Assembly: GCA_028456385.1 (NCBI GenBank) | Contig: JALNQF010000190.1 | Coordinates: forward strand, 19,063-83,062 | DNA from: Ophiosphaerella korrae | Lineage: Eukaryota; Ascomycota; Dothideomycetes; Pleosporales; Phaeosphaeriaceae | DNA length: 64,000 bases | Reading direction: 5' to 3' | Part shown: positions 21,559 to 55,685 of the stretch, in pieces | Layout: every line of letters starts with the position of its first letter | How positions within the stretch are numbered: position 1 is the stretch's first letter | Notes under the pieces: generated by a model | What the model was told of the DNA's origin: nothing | Seen by the model: the letters and a program-made list of their open reading frames with translations, nothing else | Database searches by the model: none | Translations under genes and position numbers: made by a program

Positions 21559-21873
21559 ATAAGCTTGTCCTTTATATAGCCGTTCAAAATTGTCTAGCAA
21601 ATTAGAATGCTAAAAACCCGTTCCGAGTTCAAACCGGAAATCTCTATTATAATCGCAATTACCCCAGAAGATATGTACATTTTTAACGGGCATCTTTGTA
21701 CAGCCGCGCGGGATGAATTGCTTTCACACTGCAAGGCTAGCTCTAAAAGCTTCAAATCTATCCGACTCGGCTTGCAGTTTCTTCAGATGCTGCTTCTTTT
21801 GTTCTTCTCGTCGATGTACTTGCTCCTTAATCTAAACAGAACGAATCGTTAACCAAGCATGACACAAAGCCCG
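21559..21873. other. Convergent intergenic region
   Basis: These 315 bases lie between the 3' ends of the transporter and the large minus-strand kinase gene, so they should hold two 3' UTRs. The small frame at 21,607-21,852 has no motif and is not called. Confidence 0.5.
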
Positions 21874-24800
21874 TTAGGTTGGATGGATAAAACTGACCTT
21901 TAGCTTTGTTTGAAGCATCTTATCCTCCTCACCTAGCGCTTGATACAACGCCTCCATCGTTTGCAGACATGCCAGGTGTAGCTCGGAATGAGCATAGTTC
22001 GTCTCATGCCACTTCTCTGTTCGAGCCAAGGCCATTCTGCCTTGACCGACAGCATGCCCAAAATCCCTCGTGGCAGTCTTCAGCCTGATGTCTTGGATAA
22101 AAGTCCTTACGAGCCCGGTTTTCTCGAGCTCTCCACTGGCTTCTCGTGATTCGGAAAACGCAACCGAGCTGGCCTTGCGCAAGAACTTGCGCGCCTCCTC
22201 GTGGTTGCCAAGCGCTTCGTACAATTGCACAAGGAAGAGGACCGCATCAAGGTTATCCCGATCACTTGCGACCACTTTCCGCTGGAGCGCAACTGCTTCA
22301 TCCAGCCGGCTCTGCTTGAATCGAAGGTAGGCCCGCGCTGGATAGGGGATATCGCGTTCATCGTCGCCCTCGTTGAAGACGTGTTGGCACGTCTCTTGCA
22401 TGAGGTCAATCATCCCATCGGCCTCGTCCATCTTGCTGGCATCGACGAGAACCCGCGCCAGGGCTGCCATGGTCTGCAGCGTGGCCTCTTCTCCGATACC
22501 CAAGCTCGCGAGCCTGAAGTCCATGGCGCGCCGGCCAAAACCCTCAGCCTCGTTCCACCGGCCTTGCTTGCTGCACGACTTGATCAACAAGTCGAGCAGA
22601 ACGCACGCCTCCTCGCGCTCCTCGGGATGTTCCATCTCCATGAAGCGCAGCACATCTTGCTGCACTAGTTCTGCCTCAGGCCAGAAGCCTAGTGCTGGGA
22701 GGATGAAGACGAGGTCCTTCTTAGTGTCGATTGTATCCTCGTGGTACTCCCCGCGCAACTCCCGCCGCCGCCTCAGTAGCTCGCCCGCCAATTCCAACGC
22801 CTCAGTCATATTCTCCTCGGCAAGGGTCACCCGCAACAGGTCCGCCAGCAAGTCCAACGTTGCGTCAGCTGTATCGCCAAGGACCCGCCGTGTCGATTCA
22901 GTCGCCACCCGGTAGTGGGCCACTGCCTCAGAGTTGCGGTCCGTCTGCTCGCAGACGTAGCCTAGAAAAGCAGCCGCCAGCCGCGCCGGCTTTGAGTCGG
23001 CTGCTGCAGCTGCGAGCACCTCGCGCGCCAGTGGCTCCGCAGCAGCGTAGTCAGCTACACCGATGTGCAGTCTCGCTAGGGCGCACATGGACGTTAGCAT
23101 GTCTAACGTCGCAACACCGCCGGCGTTTGCTCTTTCCCGCTCGAGCGAGGCAGCGTACAAACGACGCGCCTCGTCCAGTTCGCCTCGCAGTTCCTTGCAC
23201 GTAGCTTGGATGTACAGCGCCAGAGAGACCATTCCATCGTTGGTCTCGGGCACGTGGCTGGAGATGTGCAGGAGCCGCCCGGCTTGCACCTCGCTCTCGT
23301 CGAGCTGCCGTGCCCGCAACAGGGCTGTGCACAGGTCCTCTACGGCTTTGCCGGTGTGGACGTGGATCTCGCCGTGGGATCGAACGGCAGAGGCGACACG
23401 GCGCTGGAAGAGGTCGATGGCTTCAGCGGACTTGGCTGCGAAGGACAGCGTCAGGCCGAGCTGGCGCTCCGCGTTGAGAGTGGTCTGATGATCATCGCCG
23501 AGCATGGCACGATACGCAAGAACGGCTTCCTGGCCATAGGCTTCGGACTTTTCGACCTGCTCTTGGCTTCTGAGAGCCTCGCAAAGGGCAGTCTTGACAT
23601 CTGCTAGCTCCAAGGCGTCACAGGGAGAGGACTGCTCGAGAATATTCAGCACCTGTTCTTGGAGAAGACTCGCCTGGGCCCAGCTTCCGCACTTGCCCAA
23701 CGCGGTGGCTAGGTTACGCTTTTGCTTGGTCGTGACCAGGTGCTCAGGACCTATGGTGGATTGGAGATGGTCCACCAGCTTCTGTAGCGACTGGGCCTCC
23801 TTTTCCCACAAACGACGCAGTCTGTAGTGGGCGGCAAGCTGTTCCAGCACCGCATGAGTAGCGTGGGACTTTCGCTTTCCGTGGATCTCGAGGCAGGTTT
23901 CGAGCACGTTGGTTAAGATAGGCTCCGAAATCTCGTGCTGTCGGCAAAGATCCAATCCTGCTGCTAGGTCGATGAGAGCATGAAAGACCTCGAAGAATTC
24001 CTTGGGTTTTACGGCACGCAGCCTGCGCGGCAGCAACTCTGTTAACTTGGCCGCTGCTTCAAATTTCTGGGTTCGGCAATAGTCTAGGACGAGACTTGCC
24101 TTGAGGTAAAACAAAGGTCGGGAGAAGTCCAGGGTAACGTCACCCTCGCTGCCGTCGGAGAAGATCTGGTCCTGATAGATTCGGTCGTAGAGCTCCAGCG
24201 CTGCTTCTTGGATCTTGACCGCCTCTTCATGCCTCCCGAGCTGCGACTCTGTGCTCGCACGCGCAGTCTCTACTTTGAGTGTGACGGGGTGATTGCGACC
24301 GAAGGTATCCAAGGCATTGAGAGAGACGGCAAGAGCGTAATCATGTGCTTCTTGAATCCGTCCAAGAGAAGATGAGATGTAGATATTGTCGATCATAGAC
24401 TCGAACAAGTCGACGTGGTCCGGAGGCAGCTGGGCCTGGCGTTGGGCGAGGACGGTTTGGTGCAGCTCTCCTGCTTCCTCGATCTTACTCTGATAACTGA
24501 GTACGTTATACAGTACTGTGGTGGTGCGCAAGGTAGTTGGGTGTGTTTCCCCCAGTCTCTTTCTCTGCAGCTCGAGAGTGTTCCTCAGCTTCACTTCTCT
24601 CTCGGCAGCCGATTCGATACCGTCGCCGACAGAAAGCTCTGTTTCTTCCCGTTCGAGCTTGAGCTTTTCCAGCGTCGCCTGCAGATTAGCCGTAGCCTGT
24701 CTGTTCTCGTCTGAGTCCTCAGGAGCAATTGGATGATCACCCAGCCATTTCTCGAGGGCATCCGGGCTGTTTCCCTGCACGGCGACGTCCCTGACTATCT

Positions 24801-27800
24801 GCAGCTTCACGTACTCGTGCAGTTGTTTCAGCTCCTGAAGATAGCCGTCGTCTTCTCCTGCTTGCTCCAACTCCTCCACGCCCTCTAGCAGTGCCCCGGG
24901 CGTGCGCTTCTCCCGGTCCCCGACAAACATGCGCTGCCCCTGCTGCTCAACAAGCTCCACCACCCTCTGCCTGTTCCCCAGCTCCACCGCGACATGCAGC
25001 CTTGTCCTGCCATGGCCCGGGTCGCCCTTGTCGAGCAACGTGAGGATAATGTCTTCCAGTCCAAGCCGCCACTGATACAGCTCCTCCTTGTCCAGCGACT
25101 TGCCGCTCCACGCGTAGGAGCGCTGCTGCGGCCGCCGCCCCGCGTCCACGGCCATGCCCAGAAGCCAGTCCAGCATGCCGCCCGGCCCAATGCGCGCGCC
25201 CGCCTGCAGCAACGCGAGCACCGCAGGGGCGTTGCCCGCACCGACGGCCATGGCGAGCGGCGGCACATCCCCCACGGCCGCGTTGACCAGCGCCCGCACA
25301 CGCGCGTGCTCCAGCAGGTGGAAGAGGACGTGCATGCCGCGCACCGTGGCCCGCCCCATGGCCGCCGAGTGCAGGATGGTGTGCGAGCCCAAGTCGACGG
25401 CCGCGCCGCGCGCCAGCAGCAGGTCGACAGTGGCTCCGTCGCACGTCGCGGACCCCACGGCAGCCTCGAGCGGCGTCCTGCCATCCCACCGCGTCTCCAG
25501 CGGCGCCCCACGGTCTAGCAGCAGCCGCACCGCCGCCACGTCGCCCAGCCCTACGGCGACAAACAGCAGCGGGATGCGCGCACCGCCCGCCACCAGCGGC
25601 GCATCCACAGCGAGCGCCCGGCCCGCGACGCGCGCATCCAGCACGGCGCCGGCAACTGCAGCGCTGCCGGCCTGCAGCGACGCGGCCAGCACGGCAGCGT
25701 CCAGCGGCAACAGGCCATCCTCGAGCAGGCGGCGCACAATGGCGGCAGCCGCGGCGTCGCGGCGCTTGACGACCGTGTTGGTGACGGCCATGGGCTCTTC
25801 GCCGCGGCCGAAGCGGGCGCGGCGGGCAACAAGGGCGGCAACGGGCTCAAGGCCCAGCCAGCAGGGCGCGCGGGCGACGGCGTGGGACAGCGGCGTGGCG
25901 CCGTCGGCGTCCTCGTCGTTGACGGCGGCTGCGCCCGTGCCCAGCACAAAGCCGAGCGTCGACTCCAGCGCACGCGGGGCTGCGGCGCCGTGGATGAGCA
26001 GCGGCAGCAGGGCGTCGTGCGGGTGGGCGAGGTCGAAGAGGCCCAGCGGCGGCACGCGGGGCGCCGTCCAGAGCGACTCGCGATAGGCCCGCTCCCGGCC
26101 GAGCAGCGACGGGAGCAGGTGGTCGAGGCGCAGGGCGACGGCCAGAGGATACGTGCCTGCGGTCCAGCCCGTGGCCTCGACGCCCAGCCTGGCCTGGAGG
26201 CGCAGAAAGGCGTCGACGAGCGCGGCGTTGTTGGTCGCGATGGCGACTTCCAGCGGCGTGCCCGCCACCATGCAGCCGCCCATCAGGATCCCCGGCTCCG
26301 GTATGCGTTCCAGCAAGCCCTCCTGCCCGCCTGCAGCGGCAGCCAGGAGCTCGAGGGCGACGCCAGCCTCCGCGGGCGCGAGCTGCCCCAGCCAGTGCAG
26401 CGGCGTGGCCCGCGCGCGGCCGCCTGGCAGCATCGAGACGTGTCTGCCGAGAAGCCATCGAAGCACGTCGAGATGGGCGCCGCGACAGGCGGCGACAAGC
26501 AGATCCTGTCCCCATGCCCCCGTGGGCGCCGTTGCTGCAGCACGGGCGAACAACAGCTCCACCAGCGGCAGGAGGCCGAGACGGGCTGCTACGACCAGCA
26601 GGTTGCCCTGCATCTGGGGCGCACTGTCGTCCTCCACCACACATGGCATGCACTCGAGGTGCTCGGCGCACAGGCTCCCAATTTCTTGCAGCTTGGCGTG
26701 CGCATCTGCGAGATGAACCGCTCCGAGAACCGTCTCTCCGTGCTGTTGGATGTCAAATGTCCTCCCGAGTGCGTCTGCCTGGTGCATCTTCTCATACAAC
26801 CGGAGCCGCTCCGCAAAGTACGTCCGGCTGTCGAGCTGCGACAGAGACTTCTCGAGCCTGGCGATGGGGTGGTCCATCTCCCACAACGCTGCAGGCACTT
26901 CGCCCATGGCACATTCGTGGAGCCTAAAGACAATGGCGAGCGCTTTGCGGCTGCCCATTCGTGCGGCCTCGGCCAGGATTCCCAGCGACTTGGCAGCGTC
27001 GACTTTCTCTGTGCCAACGTTAGATAGATAGCACATGGCAAGGTCGAATAGAGCCGACCGTTTGTCAACATTCGATGTCGATGTTTCGGCTGCATAGCGG
27101 AGCTGGCCAAGCAGGTCGACTTGCACCGCGAGCGGCATCTGCGGGATTGCCTGCGTCGTGCCATTTGTTAACGTCCGTCTCAAGCTCGACTGCGGGCGGT
27201 GGATTCATACAAATGTTGCCACCGACGAACCGTCAGCTCCAGAACCGCCAGCTCCAGCAAAAGGCTCAAGCGGCGCGGCCCACTGTTTGTCTTGGGTAGG
27301 AGAGAATCCGATTTGTCGCCTGGGACAGTATTTAGTCTCAGCAGCTACTAGGTTGATAGGAGTTACAACACTGACATCCAGAGATTTTCGCTGAGAGCTT
27401 TGTTCTGACGGAAATAGCTAGCAATTTTTTCAATGCCCTCACGATCGTGCGAATTGTCCCTCAACGATGCCAGAAGAACACGGGATATAATCTGCACAAG
27501 CGAGCCGCCTTCGTTTCCATGAACTTCCTTCAAGGAAGTCATGCTTCGCAAGAGCAGCTCATCTTTCGGTAGGGTATTGAGCCAAGACACGGCCGCCGTG
27601 ACAGCCTCGCTGCCTATGGTTTCACCTAGACTCTTGTAATATCTCACGCCTCCCAAAATCAAGTCCCAGCAGAGAAGTCCAAACGAGTAAATATCACACT
27701 TGAACAGCGCATCTGCCTCCATTGGGACAAAAACATCTCGACATCGTATCTCCGGGGCATTGTATAACAATGTTCCGAGATAGACTTGGCTTCTTTGCTC

Positions 27801-28595
27801 CGGCTTGTGAAGATCAATCAGTGAATAGCCAAAGTCGGACAGCTTGGCAACATAGGGTCGCCCGTACCCCTCGAAGACTAACGTGTTCTCCATCTTCACA
27901 TCTCCATGAGCTATGGCGCACTTGTGGAGAGCCTCAAGTCCGCTCGCAATGTCGTGCATGAGATGAGCCTTGGTGGTAAGGTCCAGCTTCTTGTCGGGGC
28001 CGAGGCCCTGGCAAAAGTCCCTCAGCGTCCCGAATGGAGCAAACTCGGCAACAAGAGAAACTTCGGTGCTGTGCAGAGAGGATTTGGATGCAAATTCAGG
28101 TCGATAACCGAGCAGAGTGACGATATTCATGTGAAACTGCAGTGGCAGATGAGTAAGGATCCGAAGCTCCTTCAAGACTGTGGCCACGGGGCATTGGTGA
28201 GCAGACGAGCTCGCCTCGTCCTGTGGATCATCTTTCTGAAAGATCTTGATCTTCTTGACGGCCACCATGATGGGCTTGCCATCTCTCGTCTCATTGAGTG
28301 CACATTTTTCCACGCGGTACGAAGCCCCGTCGCCAACATACTTGCCTACTCCATCCCAGCCGCCGTCAAAATCCGTAGCCTTGTAATACCGCAGCTTTGT
28401 ATAATCCCCTTCGGCCTCAGTCTTGGATCCTAACCGATTCCAGCTCAGACTGATTAAATAGGTCCATATGTCAATAGGCTCCAGCTTGCCAGATCTTTTG
28501 CCTCCTGAGGTCGTCACCTTCCCGCCCTCACCATGGACAGAAACGGAGGTTACTCCAGAGGAAAGCACAGTACGGAGATCCCAGGTAAGACTCAT
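21874..28595 (-). CDS. Protein kinase with Sel1-like, ankyrin and TPR repeats (2201 residues)
   Basis: Three exons, 28,595-27,376, 27,319-27,211 and 27,150-21,874, are joined by 56- and 60-bp introns with GTCAGT and GTATGA donors and CAG acceptors. Phases match exactly, so what looks like two genes is one. Residues about 70-350 form a kinase domain with glycine loop GDGASYRV, VAVKK lysine 114, catalytic HGDVKMEN (Asp232), DFG 254-256 and APE 280-282; all key residues are present. A Gly/Ala-rich linker follows. Next come a Sel1-like segment (about 472-515), ankyrin-type repeats (about 620-1190, with TPLHWLG, TPLSHAV and TPLEAAV motifs), and kinesin-light-chain-like TPRs to the end (GETHPTTLR, GRNHPVTLK, GDDHQTTLN). 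The ankyrin-coding part (about 24.9-26.7 kb) is strikingly GC-rich. Such repeat proteins are sensors or scaffolds; substrate and ligand are unknown. It shares a promoter with the HeLo-pseudokinase gene. Confidence 0.85.
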
Positions 28596-28860
28596 CTTGA
28601 TTTCCCATGCAAGGTTAGGTAGAGAGAAATAGCAGAACTAGAAAAAGAACGCTACAGAGATGTGCATGTTCAGCCTGGCACACAACCAGGCTGTCAGAAC
28701 ATGATCCCAGTGGCTGAGGTTCAGCTCGCAAGACACATGACAGCTTTGTCAGCCTGTCAAGGGCCGAACAGGAATAGTTAGCGCAGCCACCCCCCGCCTA
28801 CTCGCGCCTCGGTTTCGTCGCCCCAGCACTCTAATTTCCAACAACACAACCGACTAACAC
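28596..28860. promoter_or_regulatory. Shared divergent promoter with a palindrome
   Basis: These 265 bases separate the start codons of two divergent kinase-type genes, so both promoters must lie here or overlap. At 28,667-28,701 there is an inverted repeat: GTTC and AGCCTGG on the left face CCAGGCT and GAAC on the right. Related CAGCCTG/TGTCAG words recur to about 28,765. The palindrome could be a regulator site or an RNA hairpin in one 5' UTR; no factor is assigned. Confidence 0.55.
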
Positions 28861-30566
28861 ATGGAGGTTGCCAGCCTAGTCTTGGGTGCCGTCACCTTGG
28901 TGAAACCGGTTTGCACTACTGTTGAAGAGGTCCTGAAAAACTACAATGGGTTTGGAAAAGATGCCGAGCGTCTGCGCTTGCGCTTTGCAGTATCCAGGAC
29001 CAGGCTGGACTCAGTGGAGCGTGTCTTGTTCGATGAGAACAAGTTCTCGCCCATCATGCCCGGCCGTTTAATTGACCACCTACCAGAGAAATTATGCGAC
29101 GACATGCTGGCACTTCTACGACAACTCTACGGCCTCCTGATGGAATATGCGGCTGTTCGTGTCCAGTACAAAATAGAGCAACAGGAGGCCAAGGTTGGTG
29201 TCAACAGTCTGGCCGATCTGTCGGCAGAAGATCGCATTAAGGTTTTGGCAGTGGACAGGAAAACAACAGATGCATCGCAGCAGAAAGCCGTAGGGTGGGC
29301 ACGGAAAATGATGTGGGTTGCCTTTGACAAAAGTAGCACCGAGAAACTCGTGTTGGAGTTCGAGGCGTGGACACAGAGAACACAGGTACTGCTAGAAGCC
29401 GCATGGTGGCCCTTGTCCTTCTTCCAGACTCTGGAACGACTGCAAAAGCTTGAACAAGATCAGGACGCCAAAACCGTTGGATTGCTGCGTGGCATCGGAG
29501 TGCGCAAATTGCTCGTCACCAGCCCAGCGTTGATGCATTCTCGGTCCCAGGCAAAGGAAGCTATTCCCAAAGATTTTTGTCGTAGCTCCAAGATCAATGT
29601 TTTTGACTTGGGAACCCTGAATGGTTCGGATGGCCACTACATGGCTGAGTACAAACAGTATGCACCTAGCAGCGGGAGTTCAATCAGTGCCCCTGTCGTC
29701 CGACAGCGAGTCGTCCAGCTAGCCGCCCTACTCCACGAGGCTCCCATCTCAGATCCAGCGCTGAGGGTGCTGCAGTGTACACACTACTTCGAGGAAACCC
29801 CAAAGTTACGCTTTGGGCTGCTTTGTCTGCTTCCATCTGCCGGTGGCACAACGCAACATCCCACGACGCTCGCCAGCATCCTGGATGCCAAGTATAAAGG
29901 CTCTCGTCCGTCTCTGACCGCAAGGATACGCCTTGCCCATAAACTCGCCTTGTGCATACAACGGCTGCATACTTACTCGTGGGTGCACAAGTCACTGCGA
30001 CCAGAAAACGTTCTCTTATTCCCATCGGACAACGAGCTGTCCGAAATCGAGAGAGCACTCGAGGATCCACGGCTCGTTGGGTTTGAGTACTCACGGCAGG
30101 AGTCAGACTTTTCTGATCAGTTTGGAGAATCAGAGATCAAACGAAATATCTACCGACATCCCACTCGGTGGGGACAACCGACCAATCGATTTGAAAAGAT
30201 CCACGATATATACGGTATGTTGTAACGGCTTTTTGCTGTATTTCATCGTAGCGCAACTAGAACAGGGAGTACTGATGAAACACCTCATACATAGCCCTAG
30301 GTGTACTCCTTCTCGAAATCGGCCTTTGGTCTCGAGCAGATCAATTCGACAATGGAGCCCTCGTTGGCCCCAGTATGGCTAACAATCCAGTCGCTGTGCA
30401 GAACAAGCTTCTCAAACACGCACAAGTCCGTCTCGGATTCTACGCCGGCAATGCGTTTCGTGACGCCGTAGTTGGTTGTCTTACCAGCCAGTTTCCGGAA
30501 ACAGACATGACGGAAGGGTTTTCGCGTTTGATCGAAGGGATTGAAGCAGCGGGAGCGGCTGTCTGA
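28861..30566 (+). CDS. HeLo-like domain plus pseudokinase (MLKL-like architecture)
   Basis: Two exons (28,861-30,214 and 30,301-30,566), with an 86-bp intron (GTATGT donor, CCCTAG acceptor) inside HDIYG/VLLLEIGLW, give 539 residues. The first 200 or so residues resemble a HeLo/prion-inhibition domain: a hydrophobic start (MEVASLVLGAVTLV), then FGKDAERLRLRFAVSRTRL and an all-helical continuation. The second half is a degenerate kinase fold. The catalytic loop reads HKSLRPEN (376-383), with no HRD aspartate; the DFG position reads GFE (407-409); no glycine loop is evident. IYRHPTRWG and DIYGVLLLEIGLW are typical of fungal pseudokinases. HeLo-type domains act in membranes in fungal cell death (HET-S) and in human MLKL. 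The role here is inference from architecture. It is divergent to the kinase-ankyrin-TPR gene. Confidence 0.8.
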
Positions 30567-31399
30567 TTTATATCGCGCAGCCTAGTGCACGCCTGGTAAT
30601 CGATCCGGCGGTCTCGTACCTTCCCTGATAGATAAGTGCTTCTGCCACATCATTCATACTCTTAAGTGCCAGGTTATGCTCCACTCCTAATCTTTTTTCT
30701 CTTGATAATAGTACTTGTCGGTACGTTGTTTTGGCCGCCGAATATTGCCTAAGGCTTGATTGACACCGTCCTACCCGATCTAGAAGCGAAGCCTTTGTTG
30801 TCTTGTCTACTGCGTCGTTAAGTCCAGTAGATACTAATGTTTTGTTATTGCTAATAAAAGCTGCTGCCTATATAATAGCAAGTAGTAGATAGGTAAGCAC
30901 CTCCAGTAGTTTATTAATAGCTTTGTTACCTACTTGAATCCTAAAACCTTAACAGCTATCGGGCGTAAGCCAAGTTTCCGCACCTACGTAATTGCCATGC
31001 GATTGCAAACCATATAATCACACATTTGTTTGCATAATAACGTAGTTTATAAGCGAGCGCCGGGCCCCAAAACATACCAAAAAGTTGAAAAACAGCCTCT
31101 TGATTAGATGGCGTCCCTAGCGTCAACGCACCTACGCTGATGCAACCAGCACTGACAGAAATACCAAACACGACCCCTCGGGCAAGTCAAACATGGCTTC
31201 GTAAGCGCGCGCACCAAACAGGGCCTAATTTTGGACAGAAGCGACCAGCCCCCACATAGCTAACTACCGTTTCTACGCTAAGCACCACTTTTATATACGT
31301 ATAAAGAAGTGCGGCTACTTGACGTTTACACACCAATATCGTGATCACTATCATTATCATCGTCACCACCACCACCACCGCCACGACCACGACATAGCT
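30567..31399. other. Intergenic, with a CAC microsatellite
   Basis: No gene is recognised between the pseudokinase and the ankyrin gene. The middle (about 30,700-30,960) is TA-rich. A CCGCACCTACGTAATTGC-like word near 30,977 and CGCACCTACGCTGATGC near 31,126 are partly similar, possibly traces of an element. A (CAC)n/(CATCAC)-type tract at about 31,340-31,395 lies just before the next start and is probably 5' UTR. Confidence 0.45.
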
Positions 31400-32320
31400 A
31401 TGGCGCAGTTGACCATGGCAGATTTAAAGGAATTCCCAAGCTGCTACGACTCGCCTAGAGATGTAGATGATGTACTTGTAGGCGAGGACGCCGCCCGCCT
31501 TCTCATTGAAGCAAGCTCGTCTGGCAACGACACGGCCGTACAAAGCTTGCTATCGCAGCCACAATGGATCGAGACAATGCTCAAAGCACCGCACTGCATC
31601 TATAACGAGAGTCGTCCAAGTCAAGGTCCAAACGATGTGCGCGAGGTGACGGCAAGGCGAATATTAAACCTTGAACGGGCTTTGACAGTAGCAGCTCAGA
31701 ACGGCCATGCTGCCGTTGTGTCCACATTACTCGCCTTCGCAACAGACCAAGATATCGAGGCTTCCGACGTTATAACGGGATCGATAATTAACAGGATTAT
31801 CGGCGGTGGGCACGCCGCTGTATTCGAGGCATTAGCATCTGCAGACCCGGATATTATCAACTTCCCCATCGGCCACGGTACGCTGCCACTTTACGAGGCA
31901 GTGAGGCAAAGGCAAACCGGTGTGGTTGCTGTGCTGCTCGAGCTTGGGGCGGATCCATTGCATCCTGTTGAGCAGTCAAAAAGAATTGGGAGCTACAACT
32001 CGTCTCTGATGTCTCTCGCCGCAATAGATGAAGGTCCGCGCATGACTGAGATGCTGTTGGGACACGGTGCCCCTATCGCTCAGACTGGTGCGTTACATAC
32101 CGCCGCACATCGCGGTCATCTTGATACTATGCGCCTCCTGCTGCAGCATGGCGCGGACGTGAATGAGGTCCTTTCTAATTGGCGGAATTGGACGCCGATG
32201 CATTTCGCCGCTTCCAAGGGCCAGGTCGATGCTATAAAGTTGCTGGAGCACAGTAGGGCACGCTCCGACTTGAAGGACGTGGATGGGAAGACACCTGCGC
32301 AACTGCTGGAGGGACCGTAA
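31400..32320 (+). CDS. Ankyrin-repeat protein (306 residues)
   Basis: The first ATG in the frame is at 31,400. The open frame extends upstream only through a His-codon microsatellite that starts with TTG, so I use this ATG. There are several ankyrin-like repeats: ALTVAAQNGHAAVVSTLL, LPLYEAVRQRQTGVVAVLLE with GADP, ALHTAAHRGHLDTMRLLLQ with GADVN, and TPMHFAASKGQVDAIKLLE. There is no other domain, signal peptide or membrane segment. Ankyrin repeats mediate protein-protein contacts. The gene sits 0.8 kb from the HeLo-pseudokinase and on the same strand, but nothing in the sequence ties them functionally. The start is moderately certain. Confidence 0.8.
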   Translation: MAQLTMADLKEFPSCYDSPRDVDDVLVGEDAARLLIEASSSGNDTAVQSLLSQPQWIETMLKAPHCIYNESRPSQGPNDVREVTARRILNLERALTVAAQNGHAAVVSTLLAFATDQDIEASDVITGSIINRIIGGGHAAVFEALASADPDIINFPIGHGTLPLYEAVRQRQTGVVAVLLELGADPLHPVEQSKRIGSYNSSLMSLAAIDEGPRMTEMLLGHGAPIAQTGALHTAAHRGHLDTMRLLLQHGADVNEVLSNWRNWTPMHFAASKGQVDAIKLLEHSRARSDLKDVDGKTPAQLLEGP

Positions 32321-33585
32321 CACTGCTTAGCACTAGCACACGCCGACAATAGGCAATGTTGCTGGGCATTGAGAAAAGTGCTTGTGGAACAGTATCGAGA
32401 CATAGTGGAGAGCACAGCTTGAATCTTTCGGTCTTAAGATTGATTAGCAACATCTTAACAATTGGTAGTGCCTTACTTCCCCTAGATATGGGAACCTAGT
32501 TAATAAATGAGGTTTAAAACTCCTCCCCTTTGTTAATATAATTACTACCTTCTCGGCCATATTTGTTGCGTTGAGATTTGGTCTTGCGCGTTGAGAACCA
32601 GACTCTGCAACAAGTAATCCGGAATGAGTGGATTGATTAACTTGATTGGTAACTCAGTTCCATCAAGCCAATCTGCTCCTCTATAAATTTGGGCGCCAAG
32701 CCAATCACTTCAAGCCAAAAGGTGAAAATTGACTCGGTTGATTTTCAGGATTGTAACTGTAGTGAGATTTTTGAGGTTTTTGAGGTAGCTAGGTTGCCCC
32801 ATCTCGCGATAGTTTTGTGGTGTTGTAGTTAGTGCTTGGTCGTCGTCCCAACTAGTACTAGAGCCGCCTGTGCGCTATATGCACTTACCCAGCCATCTCC
32901 TTATACTATTTGATGAGCATTTGATGAGTATTTGAAGCTCCTATCATCGCCATGCCGCCTATACAGATGCGTCTTCTTAGTGTTTTGAACTTAGTACAAC
33001 GACAAAACTCGCACAAGCTCCATCTGCACAGCTACTACCCGACGTGTACGCCTATCCTCTCAACGCTCAAGCCCTAGCTGCCGCGAGTCAGGCCACGCCC
33101 GAGTTGTCTCGTTAACGATCGTAGTCCGCCCAGTTCGCTTGTGAACCATCGCACACGAGGGACGCGGAGAACAATCTTAGCAACAAAGGCGGTCGAGTGA
33201 AGGTTAGAAAGCGAGTGACAGAACAGCCCACCGACAAGAACCCTATGGTGTGGCACGGCAACATGTTTGGCGCTTTCATGGGCTAGGAATCTGTTCTAGG
33301 GACATTGAAGAGGGCGGTTACCATTTAGGCCGGACGCCCCTGTGTACTGTTTTCGTATGGCAAGCGCACCCCTTATATTTTTCCTTTTCTTAATTTATTG
33401 TTTTCTAATATATAAATTCTGCCTTGCAATGATATATTACCTTACAGTACTTTTCTGAAACTTCTCCGTTCTTTTCCCGGTGGTTTAATTAGCCGGGTAA
33501 TATCCTTTTTCACAGCCACTATTACTTAGGCATTTACACTTCCAAGAAAATTTCATCTTTGCATTATGCTCTGCATTCGTTGACG
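32321..33585. other. No gene recognised
   Basis: The sequence is AT-rich to mixed. Around 32,640-32,720 related words (CAAGCCAATC, TTGATTGGTAACTC) recur in both orientations, which may be a small repeat. The last about 100 bases (TTTCACAGCC, then AT-rich) lead to the Agd3 start. Short frames show no motif. Confidence 0.4.
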
Positions 33586-35923
33586 ATGAATCAACCACGG
33601 CTGTCGCTATTGGGACTGTATACTTTTGTTTTCTGGCTTATCTTCCTACAGGGTGCTATAGCATATGTTGGCGGCGCTACTATCTCAAGTACCGTCCTGA
33701 TAATCGCGCGAGATCAGACATGTGCCGAAAATGGCGCAGCTGCTGGCCTTCGTGGCTACGGAATCCCTTTCGAGATCCTCACTGTTCCCCAGAGCGGAAT
33801 TACAAATCTTCCTGTGCTCAACACATCAGCAACGCAGGGCAATTATGGGGCAGTGATTGTCCTAAGCGAAGTCGGCTATAACTACAACAACCAATATTAC
33901 AGCGCTCTTACAAACATGCAATGGAACGCCTTGTGGGACTACCAAACCCAATTCGGGGTACGGATGGTCCGCCTTGACGTTTTCCCAAGGGCAGAATTCG
34001 GAGTAGTCAGCAATGGTGGCGGTTCAAGCGATGAACCAGTTGTTTTTACAAATACGACTGGTTTTGCCACCGCGAATCTAAAAACGTAAGATCAAAATGC
34101 TCCAGCACGTTCAGCACAACTTTTTCCACCCCTATAGTGCTATCAGAGCGCTAGCAAAATTGCAGTTTGAATCCTTTTTCAATACGACTGTGCTTACAGA
34201 TTCGGTAGGAATGCGGGCGTAAGCATTCAAAACATCTACCACTATCCAGCTACTATCATGAACAAGTCAATGACATGGGAGGTAGCGAAGTTTAACAACT
34301 CTGGCACGGCTGCAGTGATTAATCAAGTTGGATCTCGCCAACAAATGATTTGGTTCATGCCATTTGCGTTGAATTGGGCCACTTCCAGTAATATATTACA
34401 GCACTCATGGATTACGTGGGTTACAAGAGGTCTTTATGTTGGCTTTAGGAGGATATATCTTAACACTCAGGTTGATGATATGTTCCTAGAAACACTAATG
34501 TATAAGTCAGGGGGCCGGAGATACCGCTGCACTCCAGACGATTTATCGCTGCATGTTGATTGGCAAATAAGACTAAATTCAGGGATGCCTGAGGGGTCGG
34601 AATATTTTATTGAGATCGGACACAATGGAAACGGTGACATTGCAACTGCTGCTCGCACGGCTCAAGGTTCCAAGGCCTGTATTCCAAAAGTCGGCATCGA
34701 ACGCGTCGATCTATCTAACGCTACCGCCAGTCCGGATTTTGCGAAGCCACCAGGAACTGGAACAGATACATGGCCAACCTCTCCTTCTCAGTATAGTTGG
34801 AGTCTAGGGTGCGCGCAAGCTGATACCCTAGAAAATTGGTTTGCTAATAAGAACAACCGGGATGCTTTTGCACATGTCTCTCATACATTGTAAGCTTATC
34901 GTCTATGTGTAGCCTCTAGTTAACACTCTCTAGCACACATCCTGTCCTCACCAACGCAACATATTCGGATGCGTCTAAAGAGGTCACTTTCAACCAAGCG
35001 TGGTTAAAGCAAGTTGGCCTCGATACAGCGAAACGCTGGAGTCCAAACGGAATCATCCCGCCAGCTATCACTGGTCTCCATAATGGAGACGCTATTAAAG
35101 CTTGGTTGGATAACGGAATTTTCAACGCTGTGGGAGATAATACACGCCCCCAATTACGAAATAGTGAGAACGCTTTTTGGCCACTAAATTCTACAGTGAC
35201 GGGCAACGGCTATGCAGGATTAAACATTATCCCGCGGTGGGCTACTCTTATGTACTATAACTGCGACCTTCCGGATTGTACATTACAAGAGTGGATTGAT
35301 ACATCAAGTAACAAAGGTACATTTGATGATCTGTTGAATGAAGCGAAGAATATTGCTTTACGAAACTTAATGGGATTGCATTGGGATGCGTAAGTCTATC
35401 CTCTCGGTTTTGAATCGAAATAATAAGTTCTGCAGATATATGTTCCACCAGGCCAACATGCATGTCCATGACGTTTCTCCAACTATTATCGGCAGTAAAC
35501 AAGGACAATTCTCTCTATTAATGTCGTGGGTTGAAGTCGTCAGTGCAGAGTTGATGCGTCTGTAAGTACATCTTCAGCTTGGGGCATGTTCCGAAGCCAA
35601 CGAATGACAGCACTACTTGGCCTATCAAGAGCTTAAAGCACGATGATCTTGCTCAGGCCTTTCTTAACCGTCAGAAACGCGATCTGTGCAGCCCTAATAT
35701 GGCATGGGCAACTTCCGCGAAAGGTGATAGTATCGAAGCCGTAAACGTATACACTGGCAGTGAAAACAAATGCGGTACTCCTATTCCAATTACTGTCCCG
35801 AATGAGGTCTCACCTGATACTGGAATGACGTACGAGCAGCTTGGCAGCGATCCGTTAACTCTATGGGTTATTATGAATGGAGACCAAAAACAATACAGAT
35901 TTAGAACAGCTATCCCATTATAG
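33586..35923 (+). CDS. agd3: Agd3-type secreted galactosaminogalactan deacetylase
   Basis: Five exons (33,586-34,085; 34,200-34,889; 34,934-35,389; 35,436-35,561; 35,611-35,923) are in phase and give 694 residues. The start at 33,586 gives a hydrophobic signal sequence (LYTFVFWLIFLQGAIA). The N-terminal half has the beta-rich carbohydrate-binding-type region with VLIIARDQTC and YGIPFEILTV. The deacetylase core shows NTQVDDMFLE (metal/catalytic aspartates) and HVSHTFTH (histidine motif), the latter recreated exactly across intron 2. The C-terminal domain includes WPIKSLKHDDLA. Agd3 partially deacetylates the alpha-1,4 galactosaminogalactan exopolysaccharide, making it cationic and adhesive; in Aspergillus it lies in a cluster with sph3, ega3 and uge3. 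None of those partners is in this window. Frames and splice sites are intact despite decayed neighbours. Confidence 0.85.
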
Positions 35924-51032: not shown

Positions 51033-53582
51033 CTAGACGCCGCCTTCGGCATACCGCTCCACGCCCTTCTTAATCTCGCGCACAATCTCCACCGCCTCGT
51101 CGCCCGTCTGTGCTTCGAAATCATACCGCTTCGTTTCGCGCTCCTTGAACACGAGCACGCGGAACATCTTTGGGTGCTTCTTCGACACCTTGCTTCCTAC
51201 GACGCTGGAAAAGTGCACTGTCGTCGTCTTGCCGGCCTCCGGCGCAAATCCCCCGGGCCGCATATTCCCCTTTGTCGTTTCGCCGGGCATGATGTGCATG
51301 TACTCGCTGTCGAGCGCGAGAATGCGGGACGTGCTCGAGGCAAAGGACATGGGCTGTTTGCGCAGGACGCGGTAGCGGCGGTAGTAGTTTGTGGAGAGGG
51401 CCGAGGACTCAGCGCGGGCGGCGAGCGGGTGGATGAGGACGTGGCCAGAGACGGCGGCATTGATACGCTCGCCTTTTTTTGTTTTCTTGGGGGCGCCGCC
51501 TGTGCTGATGATGAGGGGTGCATTGGGCGACGACGAGCCTGGGGAGCCGGCGAGGCCAAAGACGCCGTCGCCTACGAAGCGGCGGCGGGAGAGATCGAGG
51601 TCCATTCTTGTGCCAAGGGCCTCGACGGTGCGGTCTGTTGGGGCGACGGTGGTGCTGTTGCTGACTTTGAGTATGTAGAGCGCCTTGTCTAGGCGCAGCT
51701 CGTGACAGACTTGCTCAAAGACGTCGGCGATGTAGGTATCGGTTGTGCAATTGACGGGGATGTGCTTGGTGTGGAAGTTCTCGTCGGTGAAGTGGACGTT
51801 GATTGTCTTGGGAGCGCCTGTTCGACTTGCAGCGTGGGACGCGTTGACGGTAGGCGCATCGGCAAGCGCGCTCTTGTCTTTACGCGTGGCCGTTGGCGCA
51901 AACGATGGGCCAGTGATGGGGTTTCGGAAGCTCTTTGCGCGGCTAGGGATTGGCTTCATAAGCGGCTTCTCTGCCCTTCCTTCGGTTGCATCTTCTTGGG
52001 ACTCAAGTGCCGCCGCGGCTTCACGGCTGTAGATAGGTGTGGTCTGCTCATTCTCGCTGAACTCGCGTGGGCTTGCTTCCACGAGGGCGAACTCATCCCA
52101 GGGCTTCTCTCGAGCGCGTGGACGCATACCCCGAGCATTGTTGGATGCAAAATCTTTGAGTGGCTTGTTTCTTGCTAGGGGACGAAACTCGTCATCAATT
52201 TCGCCATCATCATACATGCGCATCACCCAGCAGTTAACATTCATCTTCTCTGGCGGCAGGGGTGGTTCAAGTTTCTCCTCTTGATAGCGGTGAAGTGCAT
52301 AACCAATAGCCTCAGCTACGATAGGGCCCTCGCCTTTGTCATTGAACTTCCTAATGAGAAGCTCCAGACCCTTGGAAGGCTTGGATGAGAATGGGCAATA
52401 TATCCTTAGATAGATGGGGTTCTGTTGAGCTTCGCTGGCTGCATTCCATCCAGCAAAGCGTTGAAGTGGGTTTGATGGTTTTTGTTCTTTGGCTCTGAGC
52501 GCTTGTGTCAGAGCGCTTACTGGTAGGATAAAACTGATTGGTCTTGGCGGGGGTAAATCAGGGAGTGTTGGCGAAAGCGCCCCTTTCCTTTTATGAGGCG
52601 ACACAGTGAACGACGTCATATCAGTCAAATTAGAAAGTGCGGCGTTTGGTGGGGACGAGTCGAGTGCATCACCGCCCGCGCCCATGAGAGATCCGCTATC
52701 GGCTGAGCCGGAGAAGGCAGATTCCAGGGAACTGTCCGATTCGTTGCCCTCATCCAGCGCTTCCAGACGGGTGCGGTCGTCTTCTTGTATTCGCTGAGCG
52801 AGCAGCTGTCTATTGGCGGCCGCTCTACGGGGGTTGATCTTCCTCTTTCTGTACGCCGAATGGCTATCAATCTCATTCTCGGAAGACATTTCACTGCTGG
52901 TAATGGTGTCTCTCCTTGCTCGTTCCTTGACTGACTCCAAGGTACCCAAGGAACCTCTCCGCAATTCATTATCCGGCCGTCGTGACGGAGATGTGACCAT
53001 AACGGAGGGTCCCTCGGCAGCTTCGGCCACCTCGTTTCGCAGAGCTGAGCCTCGTATAGGTGATGAGCCAGAGCGCCCTCGGAGAGGCATCTTAGTGAAT
53101 TTGATCTGGTTTGCAGGTCTCTGCGAATCTTCCTCCTCATCGCTCTCATCACTCAAATCGCTGCTGTCGTCCTCTTCCAGGAGCTCTTTCCTCCGTCTGC
53201 GCTTGGCGTTTAGCATTGGTCCCACAGTCTCGTTGCTTCCACCGCCTGTGACCATGCCGCCCTCTTCTTCTTCATCGCCGAAGCCTTCTGGAGTTTTGAG
53301 GGCAGCCGATCGTGGGGCCTGGAAATACTCGGAGGTAATGGCGGTGGGGATTGGCGGGGAGTAGGTGCGTTTGATGTCGGCAGCGTTCGACATCCAGCCT
53401 GCAGCGCGAAAGGCAGCATTGTTCAGGACATTGGAATCGATGTTGATCAATCGCTCGCCAACGCCATCTTTGATTGATGAGAGATACGCGGTCCGTAGCT
53501 GATACAAGACAAAGCTGGCGAGGTTAGCTCGTGCTAGGACACTGCTGCACGCTACATACTCTTCGTTCTGCAGGAGTGACAT
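51033..53582 (-). CDS. SIN1: SIN1/AVO1-type TORC2 subunit
   Basis: One open frame of 849 residues from ATG 53,582. The N-terminus (MSLLQNEEYVACSSVLARAN) matches the fungal SIN1 family. A long acidic, Ser-rich stretch follows (DDSSDLSDESDEEED). The CRIM domain is at about 355-510, with NPIYLRIYCPFSSKPS, FNDKGEGPIVAEAIGYALHR and CWVMRMYDDGEIDDEFRPL. A Ras-binding-like domain lies at about 610-690 (INVHFTDENFHTKHIPV), and a PH domain at the C-terminus (YYRRYRVLRKQPMSF, KRYDFEAQT). SIN1 brings substrates such as AGC kinases to TOR complex 2 at the plasma membrane. It converges with the NOSIP-like gene (69 bp apart, with a CA/TA microsatellite at about 50,993-51,017) and diverges from the PRCC gene. 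Confidence 0.9.
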   Translation of the reverse strand: MSLLQNEEYVACSSVLARANLASFVLYQLRTAYLSSIKDGVGERLINIDSNVLNNAAFRAAGWMSNAADIKRTYSPPIPTAITSEYFQAPRSAALKTPEGFGDEEEEGGMVTGGGSNETVGPMLNAKRRRRKELLEEDDSSDLSDESDEEEDSQRPANQIKFTKMPLRGRSGSSPIRGSALRNEVAEAAEGPSVMVTSPSRRPDNELRRGSLGTLESVKERARRDTITSSEMSSENEIDSHSAYRKRKINPRRAAANRQLLAQRIQEDDRTRLEALDEGNESDSSLESAFSGSADSGSLMGAGGDALDSSPPNAALSNLTDMTSFTVSPHKRKGALSPTLPDLPPPRPISFILPVSALTQALRAKEQKPSNPLQRFAGWNAASEAQQNPIYLRIYCPFSSKPSKGLELLIRKFNDKGEGPIVAEAIGYALHRYQEEKLEPPLPPEKMNVNCWVMRMYDDGEIDDEFRPLARNKPLKDFASNNARGMRPRAREKPWDEFALVEASPREFSENEQTTPIYSREAAAALESQEDATEGRAEKPLMKPIPSRAKSFRNPITGPSFAPTATRKDKSALADAPTVNASHAASRTGAPKTINVHFTDENFHTKHIPVNCTTDTYIADVFEQVCHELRLDKALYILKVSNSTTVAPTDRTVEALGTRMDLDLSRRRFVGDGVFGLAGSPGSSSPNAPLIISTGGAPKKTKKGERINAAVSGHVLIHPLAARAESSALSTNYYRRYRVLRKQPMSFASSTSRILALDSEYMHIMPGETTKGNMRPGGFAPEAGKTTTVHFSSVVGSKVSKKHPKMFRVLVFKERETKRYDFEAQTGDEAVEIVREIKKGVERYAEGGV

Positions 53583-53821
53583 GATGGCTGTTCTAGGGTT
53601 TCATAGTCTCGTCAATTTGGTAGCATCAGGCCAGCTGAGTAGGTGGTGTGGTCAGCAAATAAGACAAATGCCGTCCGGTCGCGATGTCGGGAGACGTGTG
53701 GAGTGGAAGTGGGGCCCTTGGCTTGGCAACGGTGATCATCATGCACGTCATTTAACCAACAACTTTATCCGCACTCCCTCATAACAACATTCACACACCC
53801 GCCCACACACCCGCCCACTCG
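53583..53821. promoter_or_regulatory. Bidirectional promoter of SIN1 and PRCC-family genes
   Basis: These 239 bases lie between two divergent start codons. A CACACCCGCCC direct repeat (CCCGCCCACACACCCGCCCACTC, about 53,799-53,820) sits directly before the plus-strand ATG. No TATA box stands out. Confidence 0.5.
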
Positions 53822-55033
53822 ATGAATCTTATCGCGTACTCAGACTCAGAATCGGACGGAGAGTCCGCTCCGGCTCCCAAACCAGCGTTGAAACAAGCAC
53901 CAAAGCCGTCATTCCAGAAAGTCGTCGATCGCTCCAACCCAGGCAGAATCAAAGTCAACCTTCCCGGCGCATCGCGATCACAAGCAGATAAAGATGACAC
54001 CGCATCGGACGCACCACCTGCGAAAAAGCCGCGTTTGGGTGGAGCGACGGCGTTTGGTGGATTCAATGCCATGCTTCCGGCTCCCAAGAAGGCTGGGACG
54101 AGTGCAACAACAGGAAACACAACAGCAGGAAAGAGAGGGCTGGGTAAAGGACTGGCTGCCGGGGTAAACCTCAAAACCGGGGCGGAGCCTGCTTTCAAGC
54201 GAGAATCACGTGTTGAGACGGAAGAGTATGACGAGAATGGGAATCCAATCAAAAAAGAGCCAATGAAGAAGGAGGATTTCAGAGCCCTGCTAAATCTGCC
54301 GGCCCCCAAGAGTGAGAAGAAGGAGGCGGCTATTCCAGAAGCTGCAGCCCCTATAGCGCAAACAGATACACAGCCGGTCGTGAAGCCAGCGGCTCCGCGG
54401 TTTGTCCCCATGTCTGTTGGTAAAGGGAAGAAAAAGAAGCCTGTCACCCGACGTCCAGTGGTCGCATCACCAGAAAACACAAAACCTGGTGTATCTCAGC
54501 CAGAGGCTCCGCCACCGCCCGCGCGCAAGCCTAAAGTCTCGCTCTTTGGCGTTTCTCAGGAACTACCAGCTACAGTCAACACTTTATCAACTGAAGCCTA
54601 TGAGCCTATGCTTTACAAAGCAGACACTGAGATGCAGACGGAAGGTGACTTCCAAAACGAATCTGTCTATACACCTGCAACGACAATGAGCAGTGCGCCC
54701 GCATCAAACGATTTAGTAAATATTGCCTCAGACTTGAATCTATCCGAAGCAGAGCGACGCCAGCTCTTTGGCAAGAAGGGACAAGGGGCAGCTGCCCTTT
54801 CGTCTGCAAGGATAGTGGAATATAACACCGACGCCGAATACGCACATAACGAAACTCTCCGGCAACAAGGTGAACAGGTACAGCACAACCCGCTCAAGTC
54901 CATATCTGGTACAGGGAAGAACAGCCTGCGAAGCTTGGTCAACGTTGCAGTCACTCAAAAAGACGCACTTGAAGATCATTTTACGACTGGGTATAGGAAT
55001 AAAAAGGAGGCAGGCAACAAATATGGATGGTAG
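53822..55033 (+). CDS. PRCC-family protein (mitotic checkpoint/splicing related)
   Basis: A single exon of 403 residues with the PRCC family layout. It opens MNLIAYSDSESD, has a long Pro/Lys/Ala-rich low-complexity middle (PAPKPALKQAPKP; GFNAMLPAPKK), and closes with the conserved C-terminal region: LNLSEAERRQLFGKKG, IVEYNTDAEYAHNE, HNPLKSISGTGKNSLRSLV and the terminal NKYGW. In animals PRCC interacts with MAD2B and the splicing machinery; fungal members are annotated as mitotic checkpoint regulators on that basis. Its role here is family inference. Confidence 0.85.
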   Translation: MNLIAYSDSESDGESAPAPKPALKQAPKPSFQKVVDRSNPGRIKVNLPGASRSQADKDDTASDAPPAKKPRLGGATAFGGFNAMLPAPKKAGTSATTGNTTAGKRGLGKGLAAGVNLKTGAEPAFKRESRVETEEYDENGNPIKKEPMKKEDFRALLNLPAPKSEKKEAAIPEAAAPIAQTDTQPVVKPAAPRFVPMSVGKGKKKKPVTRRPVVASPENTKPGVSQPEAPPPPARKPKVSLFGVSQELPATVNTLSTEAYEPMLYKADTEMQTEGDFQNESVYTPATTMSSAPASNDLVNIASDLNLSEAERRQLFGKKGQGAAALSSARIVEYNTDAEYAHNETLRQQGEQVQHNPLKSISGTGKNSLRSLVNVAVTQKDALEDHFTTGYRNKKEAGNKYGW

Positions 55034-55685
55034 TTCCCAGCATCTTCTGTCCCCATTTAAATATCTTCTTCGTCTTCACCATCTGCCACATAATTGCTCT
55101 TAACCACAATGACAGTTCGGGTACCAGGCAGATATATCGCGAAATGCCATGAGGGGTATGTCTCAACATGATTGTTCACTGCCACTGTTTCTATAAAATT
55201 CCCCATCTGCATAAATAACGCATAGCGTCGTCTAATTCTCTCCTTCCCTTTCAATATCAAAACGTACCTCAAACTTCGTTGTCATACATCGCTGTTTCTT
55301 GTTTCGAGCATTCACCATTTGGATTCCACTATCAACACCCTCATGATACAAAGACTACTTAGTAAACATCATGTGTGCTTCTATGACTAGACTAAACTCA
55401 AATGCGGTAAAAGTAAAACTGCTAGTAAAGTCACTTTTGAGACTGAAGTCGTTTGCCTGGGAGGCACACAATGCCACGTGGAAGCGGAACCAACATTCAC
55501 CTGGCCTATGCAGAATGCCCACCGAGCTTCCCCACTCTTATTCTTTCTATTTCTTTCTATCTCTTTCTATCTCACTCTTTTAGAATCCGGTTTGCCAACT
55601 GCTCGTCGCCTGTAACTGACAAGTAATTTTCATCCTACTATTTGACAGCGCCAACACACAACATAACTAGACCTCGACTTCCGAC
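55034..55685. other. Intergenic
   Basis: It holds the 3' region of the PRCC gene and the promoter of the SET gene. TTTCTATTTCTTTCTATCTC-type pyrimidine repeats occur at 55,544-55,578. No gene is supported. Confidence 0.5.

Follow-up and report, generated by a model that had tools for sequence, protein, structure and literature searches.

Fungal HeLo executors whose activation has been worked out are switched by NOD-like receptors (NLRs) or prions via amyloid templating (PMC12881547, PMC7885112; parts of each), and a 2017 review places fungal and mammalian amyloid motifs at non-equivalent positions of their pathways, the mammalian motif assembling the kinases that phosphorylate the MLKL pseudokinase (PMC5485727, in part). 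In the accessible parts of that literature no fungal counterpart is described for the step from kinase to pseudokinase in mammalian necroptosis. Could a recurrent fungal gene pair supply one? The question is raised by a 64,000-nucleotide stretch of the Ophiosphaerella korrae genome (contig JALNQF010000190.1, positions 19,063 to 83,062; hereafter the window, C102:19063-83062 in our survey), in which a plus-strand gene for a HeLo-pseudokinase, the putative executor, stands head to head with a minus-strand gene for a kinase-ankyrin-TPR protein, the putative sensor. Reading frames and domain searches of the window placed both genes, and the 265-bp region between them, where a first-pass annotation made from the sequence alone had put them. 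Kinase/pseudokinase pairs of this kind recur in the genome, which suggests a fungal kinase-switched cell-death system resembling human RIPK3/MLKL.

The putative executor (541 amino acids, two exons) opens with a HeLo domain (Pfam PF14479, E 1.1e-7, 32.3 bits against a curated cut-off of 23.2, residues 6-175) and also matches DUF7580 (E 1.4e-6), a family that is not mentioned in the literature searched. A profile of its family (15 of 66 matches were excluded: shorter or partial sequences, and P0066, which matches weakly and is annotated with kinase families) recovers the HET-s/HET-S structures 2WVO (E 1.3e-7, 3-180), 2WVQ (3.2e-7, 20-180) and 2WVN (3.3e-7, 3-180), bearing out and sharpening the HeLo-like N-terminus of the first-pass annotation. 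The aspartate of the catalytic-loop HRD motif is replaced by Ser in 50 of the 52 aligned family sequences and by Gly and Asn in one each, the DFG aspartate is Gly in all 52, and the beta-3 lysine is retained in 42. With its catalytic and metal-binding aspartates both lost, the kinase domain is by sequence a pseudokinase, as had been claimed. GFE in place of DFG is also found in MLKL. Position 418 is Ser or Thr in 52/52 sequences, and of 50 family members, 45 have their most hydrophobic 19-mer beginning at or before residue 25. The predicted model of a relative, P0001 (81% identical to the window protein), has an all-helical N-terminal part, with a helix at 3-31, and then a kinase fold; judged from sequence and model, the protein has the MLKL-type order of a helical putative killer domain followed by a pseudokinase. 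RIPK1 was the top Foldseek match of the executor model, and the MLKL pseudokinase ranked 26th in a list full of kinases; the query was the whole model, whose kinase fold filled the lists, and the MLKL match is one of general kinase fold. The family's sequence-profile search gave no MLKL chain among the 60 listed of 75 matches at E 0.1. Relatives of both proteins occur in many ascomycetes, the closest to the executor being from Thelonectria (83%, partial protein) and Fusarium (76-81%). P0001 itself comes from Penicillium canariense and equals the best Fusarium match in identity, a likeness that hints at horizontal transfer or patchy loss.

The minus-strand protein combines a Pfam Pkinase match (1.4e-25) with ankyrin and TPR arrays. 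Its beta-3 Lys, alpha-C Glu, catalytic Asp, Asn and DFG are each retained in 17/17 relatives, the alignment using 17 of 30 matches (P0067-P0084 minus the run-on model P0077; the more distant P0085-P0096 were left out), and K114 and D232 are invariant (alignment A4). The kinase has every key catalytic residue in its sequence and is apparently active. The HRD arginine is Gly in 16 of the 17 relatives and Cys in the other (HGD in the window), which makes this a non-RD kinase; the HRD histidine is retained in 7, with Gln in 8 and Asn in the other 2, and position 274 of the activation loop (P0067 numbering) has Thr in 16 relatives and Ser in the remaining one. An active kinase had been called from Lys114, Asp232, DFG and APE; all stand in the window, although the APE glutamate is kept in only 13/17 relatives. 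The ankyrin and TPR arrays announced for this protein were likewise recovered, whereas Sel1-like repeats, announced with them, gave no Pfam match at E ≤1 in the window protein. Outside the kinase domain, an RTVLS or RTVLSDS motif lies in the first ~20 residues of P0067-P0084 (T9 invariant, R8 and L11 at least 90%) and is possibly a docking or interaction motif. A kinase model of mean predicted local distance difference test score 75.5 gave general fold matches (FGFR2, PAK1, IRAK4 and many other kinases). RIP-kinase features were sought in this protein without a match, either to a RHIM core (crude patterns) or to a death domain (Pfam), and its exon 1 and exon 3 products had no NB-ARC or NACHT match at E ≤1 (Pfam).

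Linkage was surveyed in the window's own genome (63,029,884 bases, 974 contigs). With an executor relative as query, 22 matches were obtained, representing 21 pseudokinase loci, the window included. The window kinase exon gave 26 matches, of which ranks 1-8 fall at seven loci (window, C19, C401, C223, C163, C190, C67), all 0.27-5.9 kb from a pseudokinase of the executor family. Kinase matches lie within 6 kb of 16 of the 21 pseudokinase loci, against 0.028 expected per locus (binomial tail 2e-21), kinase loci being the window-kinase matches plus a Pkinase list (130 merged loci). Because that list scored 122 of 394 candidates and is incomplete, the true number of linked loci may be higher and the expected rate is an underestimate; taking all 394 candidates as kinases gives 0.082 expected per locus and a tail of 6e-14, or, under the same assumption without the one-frame loci, 13/18 linked and a tail of 4e-11. 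As a control, 0 of 20 other DUF7580 loci had a kinase match within 8 kb (Fisher 2.4e-7); 10 of 30 rows had been dropped because they belonged to the 21 loci or were a second fragment of a locus already listed. A local scan confined to the five loci still unpaired added C878, where the pseudokinase has a divergent kinase neighbour with HRDIKPAN and DFG, and brought the linked loci to 17/21. Ten of these 17 are divergent, three are in one frame, two are on the same strand (C13, C19) and two are convergent (C22, C190); divergence in 10/14 unfused neighbours is above one in four (p 3e-4). Three of the 17 linked kinases, at C190:359015, C22:14443 and C13:292420, are search matches only, that at C13:292420 a weak one (E 7.9e-4); in the other 14 the catalytic motifs were read. 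The linked kinases nearest the window's are just 31-42% identical to it, suggesting that linkage has outlived deep divergence.

The paired kinases are of two types, HGD/HCD-type and HRD-type, and each of the nine partner pseudokinases compared with the executor-family profile matched it (E 2.8e-58 to 3.7e-36). At C401 a kinase (HGDLKLEN, DFG) lies opposite a HeLo-pseudokinase (HeLo 2e-11) that retains a catalytic-loop HKD and has lost DFG, and a Sel1 match downstream of the kinase (1.8e-5) is under the Pfam cut-off (25.5 vs 30.7 bits). At C223 a kinase (HGDVKTEN, DFG) followed by ankyrins (1.4e-9) is opposite HeLo (1.7e-26) with DUF7580; at C163 a kinase (HGDLKPEN, DFG) with ankyrins downstream (9.4e-19) is opposite a pseudokinase (HKSIRSSN, GFE). 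The C67 kinase is in two frame pieces (HCD, DFG) with ankyrins (6.5e-35), opposite a HeLo domain (1.9e-9 and 3.6e-8, two pieces) and pseudokinase; its kinase-ankyrin frames are followed by a second kinase-like stretch, seen by eye and devoid of catalytic motifs (VVHGRIHSEN; L059:23-820). The C767 kinase (HGDLK, DFG) is divergent from its pseudokinase, as are the HRD-type kinases of C287, C235, C368 and C878. The C19 kinase (HGDIK, DFG), with ankyrins downstream, shares a strand with its pseudokinase. A caspase-like domain in front of that pseudokinase (YYAGH and DTCN by eye; L053:3210-3952) had no Pfam match and is not claimed, and a sequence search of the PDB with this stretch returned only a macrolide phosphotransferase (E 0.67). 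At C90, C190 and C68 a kinase (HHDLKP or HRDLKP, DFG) and then an executor-family pseudokinase occupy one open frame.

Partner distances are correlated across the 10 unfused pairs (Mantel r 0.63, p 0.0012) and across 13 pairs including the fused ones (r 0.58, p 0.0001). Partner trees of 10 pairs have 5 of 7 splits in common (p 1.5e-4), and with C878 added (11 pairs) two tree programs find 4 of 8 (p 7e-4 and 3e-4); part of this agreement comes from the separation of the two kinase types, several nodes are weakly supported, and the sequences were assembled by hand from reading frames, the C163 kinase being cut short. Co-diversification of the partners is partial. Elsewhere, linkage was judged from source contig sizes and locus tags, in which orientation is not visible. 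Both proteins of F. mundagurra come from a contig of 48,968 bases and both of F. beomiforme from one of 30,293, presumably the same contig in each case. In Pseudogymnoascus VKM F-4513 the tags are adjacent (V494_00201, a run-on gene model, and V494_00202; contig 64,182 for both), and in VKM F-4515 they are V496_08968 and V496_08971, the contig sizes listed for the two clusters differing. Linkage of the orthologues is retained in some relatives and is not universal. The first-pass annotation had named in advance two findings that would tell against it, a lack of HeLo similarity and a lack of conserved divergent pairing; HeLo similarity is present, gene linkage is kept in some of these fungi, and divergent pairs recur in the window's own genome.

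The reading we favour, and think rather probable, is that the pair forms a two-gene module: the repeat-bearing kinase would switch its neighbour, the HeLo-pseudokinase executor, much as RIPK3 does MLKL. It draws on domain content, the loss and retention of catalytic residues, the hydrophobic N-terminal segment, recurrent linkage, partial co-diversification and the single frames. The sensor/executor module proposed at first pass is upheld in its architecture, its assignment of dead and active kinases and its recurrence (ten divergent pairs in this genome); its function, namely action of the kinase on the pseudokinase, the direction of the signal, ligand sensing, co-expression and killing, is inferred. 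The ankyrin/TPR arrays of the large protein, serving as ligand or scaffold surface, would detect a non-self or danger signal that clusters or releases its non-RD kinase. The kinase would then act on the dead kinase domain of its neighbour, a regulated latch holding the HeLo domain, and phosphorylation of this latch, perhaps around Ser418, would free the N-terminal hydrophobic helix, so that HeLo domains might oligomerise and permeabilise the membrane. A common promoter would keep kinase and executor in step. Phosphorylation, release and killing are here modelled on MLKL and HET-S biology (PMC12881547, in part).

Several observations weigh against this reading. Of the ten divergent pseudokinases only four, those of the window, C401, C223 and C67, have a Pfam HeLo match; none was detected in those of C163, C767, C287, C368 and C878, nor in the scanned part of C235, and HeLo profile comparison, run with one option ignored (program warning), gave probabilities of 9.7% for C163, 4.2% for C368 and about 0 for C767, C287, C235 and C19. 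At four of the 21 loci (C889, C701 and both C346) no kinase was found in the 2.8-4.8 kb of flank read. Taken alone, the seven HGD/HCD-type pairs are borderline, by Mantel test (r 0.42, p 0.058) and by trees (2 of 4 splits in common, p 0.07). Linkage of the orthologues fails in Phialemonium (VTK73DRAFT_188 and VTK73DRAFT_6759, contigs of 50,151 and 15,558 bases) and in Pseudogymnoascus VKM F-3557 (V490_02408 and V490_04985, far apart). Several species with a HeLo-pseudokinase, such as P. canariense and F. longipes, gave no kinase partner in searches limited to 0.55-1.75 times query length and ~8,000 candidates, limits by which absence is not established.

Pseudokinases can also act on partner kinases, as STRAD and HER3 do. 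The dead domain of the window protein, which keeps its kinase fold, might likewise be an allosteric activator or scaffold of the neighbouring kinase, with HeLo only a membrane anchor and the output signalling rather than death; the one-frame kinase and pseudokinase at three loci would fit such intramolecular regulation, and killing by the pair is at this stage inference only. We regard this as unlikely, since the N-terminal hydrophobic segment is retained and the HeLo domain matches that of HET-S, a killer (PMC12881547, in part). Less probable again is a guard- or antidote-like arrangement in which the kinase protein keeps the HeLo protein inactive until disturbance releases death. Close divergent linkage across a short common intergenic region would suit dose-matched pairs, and what is guarded could be the surface of the large repeat array, but retention of the catalytic Lys, Glu, Asp, Asn and DFG in all 17 relatives argues for catalysis and not mere binding.

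Two further explanations appear very improbable. The described activation of fungal HeLo executors by amyloid motifs (PMC12881547, PMC7885112; parts of each) would favour templating as in het-S/nwd2 and hellp/pnt1, with the kinase incidental; against it, neither NB-ARC/NACHT nor, by Pfam in the pair, a prion-forming-domain family was matched at E 1, and no RHIM/PP-like core pattern is common to both proteins, although these patterns are crude and diverged motifs could escape them. The amyloid pattern scan gave one isolated GGQEG in the kinase protein. We give just as little credence to linkage as a by-product of one ancestral pair duplicated many times, its neighbours kept by chance: block duplication alone would yield partly congruent partner trees such as those obtained, but the low identity of the nearest linked kinases, the unlinked control loci and the two types of partner kinase all speak against it. 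Beyond the module itself, we tentatively suggest, with less confidence than we attach to the pair, that filamentous fungi possess a large family of kinase/pseudokinase death modules whose partners diversify together, a kinase-switched system parallel to the NLR/amyloid one. Each module would join a repeat-bearing or plain kinase to a pseudokinase adaptor with an exchanged N-terminal effector (HeLo in some, unnamed in others and possibly protease-like at C19), and in some the two would be fused. If so, kinase control of an MLKL-like executor would not be special to animals.

How does the pair compare with known systems? Like RIPK3/MLKL, it has an executor with a killer-type helical domain in front of a dead kinase, and an apparently active kinase that could be its activator; RIPK1 also heads the fold list of the pseudokinase. 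It differs in that the killer-type domain is HeLo by sequence, the partner kinase bears ankyrin/TPR arrays and has no RHIM pattern that we could find, and the genes are adjacent and divergent; its likeness to MLKL lies in domain order and general kinase fold. With nwd2/het-S, pnt1/hellp and fnt1/hellf it has in common a two-gene cluster, a HeLo-type executor and a large repeat partner (TPR in PNT1 and FNT1), and is unlike them in having a protein kinase, with no NB-ARC/NACHT found, and a pseudokinase instead of a C-terminal amyloid motif. The one-frame proteins of C90, C190 and C68 (HHD/HRD and DFG kinase, then pseudokinase) have the order of plant tandem kinase-pseudokinase proteins; this comparison, like that with plant MLKL, concerns order only and comes partly from portions of PMC10951266. 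Fungal HELL proteins with a kinase or pseudokinase domain are mentioned in a 2025 review (PMC12881547), and the window executor is of that kind, but the parts available give no paired active kinase gene, genome recurrence or co-diversification. Nor is a paired kinase described in the parts seen of PMC10197012, PMC4986451, PMC9815663, PMC12258605, PMC7885112 and PMC10951266. The first-pass annotation knew of no description of the pairing, and none was found in the literature searched; most subscription papers and all bioRxiv preprints lay outside that search, so an earlier description is possible. The fungal pair could make the origin of RIPK3/MLKL logic testable in easily handled organisms, and the pairs could give a concrete list of candidate non-NLR fungal immune sensors.

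The minus-strand gene probably has four exons, three clear and the fourth probable, encoding ~2,230 amino acids with introns of 56, 60 and 66 nt (Table 1); its end, first placed at 21874, is corrected to a probable 21724. The spliced product stays in register with F. mundagurra P0067 across the first two junctions. One-intron models, for which 28 donor/acceptor combinations are open, lack the junction residues of P0067 (by-eye comparison), and a two-intron model, which contains them, was therefore taken.

Table 1. Features of the divergent gene pair, in window positions.
Feature	Position	Strand	Basis
HeLo-pseudokinase gene, exon 1: HeLo domain (residues 6-175) and most of pseudokinase	28861..30214	+	reading frames, Pfam, alignment
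HeLo-pseudokinase gene, intron (GTATGT..ATAG)	30215..30294	+	splice signals
HeLo-pseudokinase gene, exon 2: end of pseudokinase	30295..30566	+	splice model
Intergenic region common to both genes, 265 bp, presumed bidirectional promoter	28596..28860	.	start-to-start distance
Kinase-ankyrin-TPR gene, exon 1: N-terminal RTVLS-type motif and active-type kinase domain (K114, E143, D232, N237, DFG)	27376..28595	-	
Kinase-ankyrin-TPR gene, exon 2: linker, in register with P0067	27211..27319	-	
Kinase-ankyrin-TPR gene, exon 3: linker, ankyrin array (Ank_2 2e-16), TPR array (TPR_12 2.6e-36)	21898..27150	-	
Kinase-ankyrin-TPR gene, probable exon 4: charged C-terminal tail	21724..21831	-	splice signals and a Colletotrichum tail of similar kind, by-eye comparison

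The ankyrin/TPR exon is GC-rich (window 22000-28000, 0.60-0.65 per 2-kb block vs 0.48-0.53 in adjoining blocks). A 333-residue ankyrin-repeat open frame adjoins the pair (31319-32320, plus strand), and frames at 33493-34893 (plus strand) match the Agd3 exopolysaccharide deacetylase (CBM87_Agd3 6.9e-47, Agd3_CE 4.6e-50). Further along, at 51033-57689, the neighbours are ordinary: SIN1 (CRIM and PH domains), a PRCC-domain protein and a SET-domain protein.

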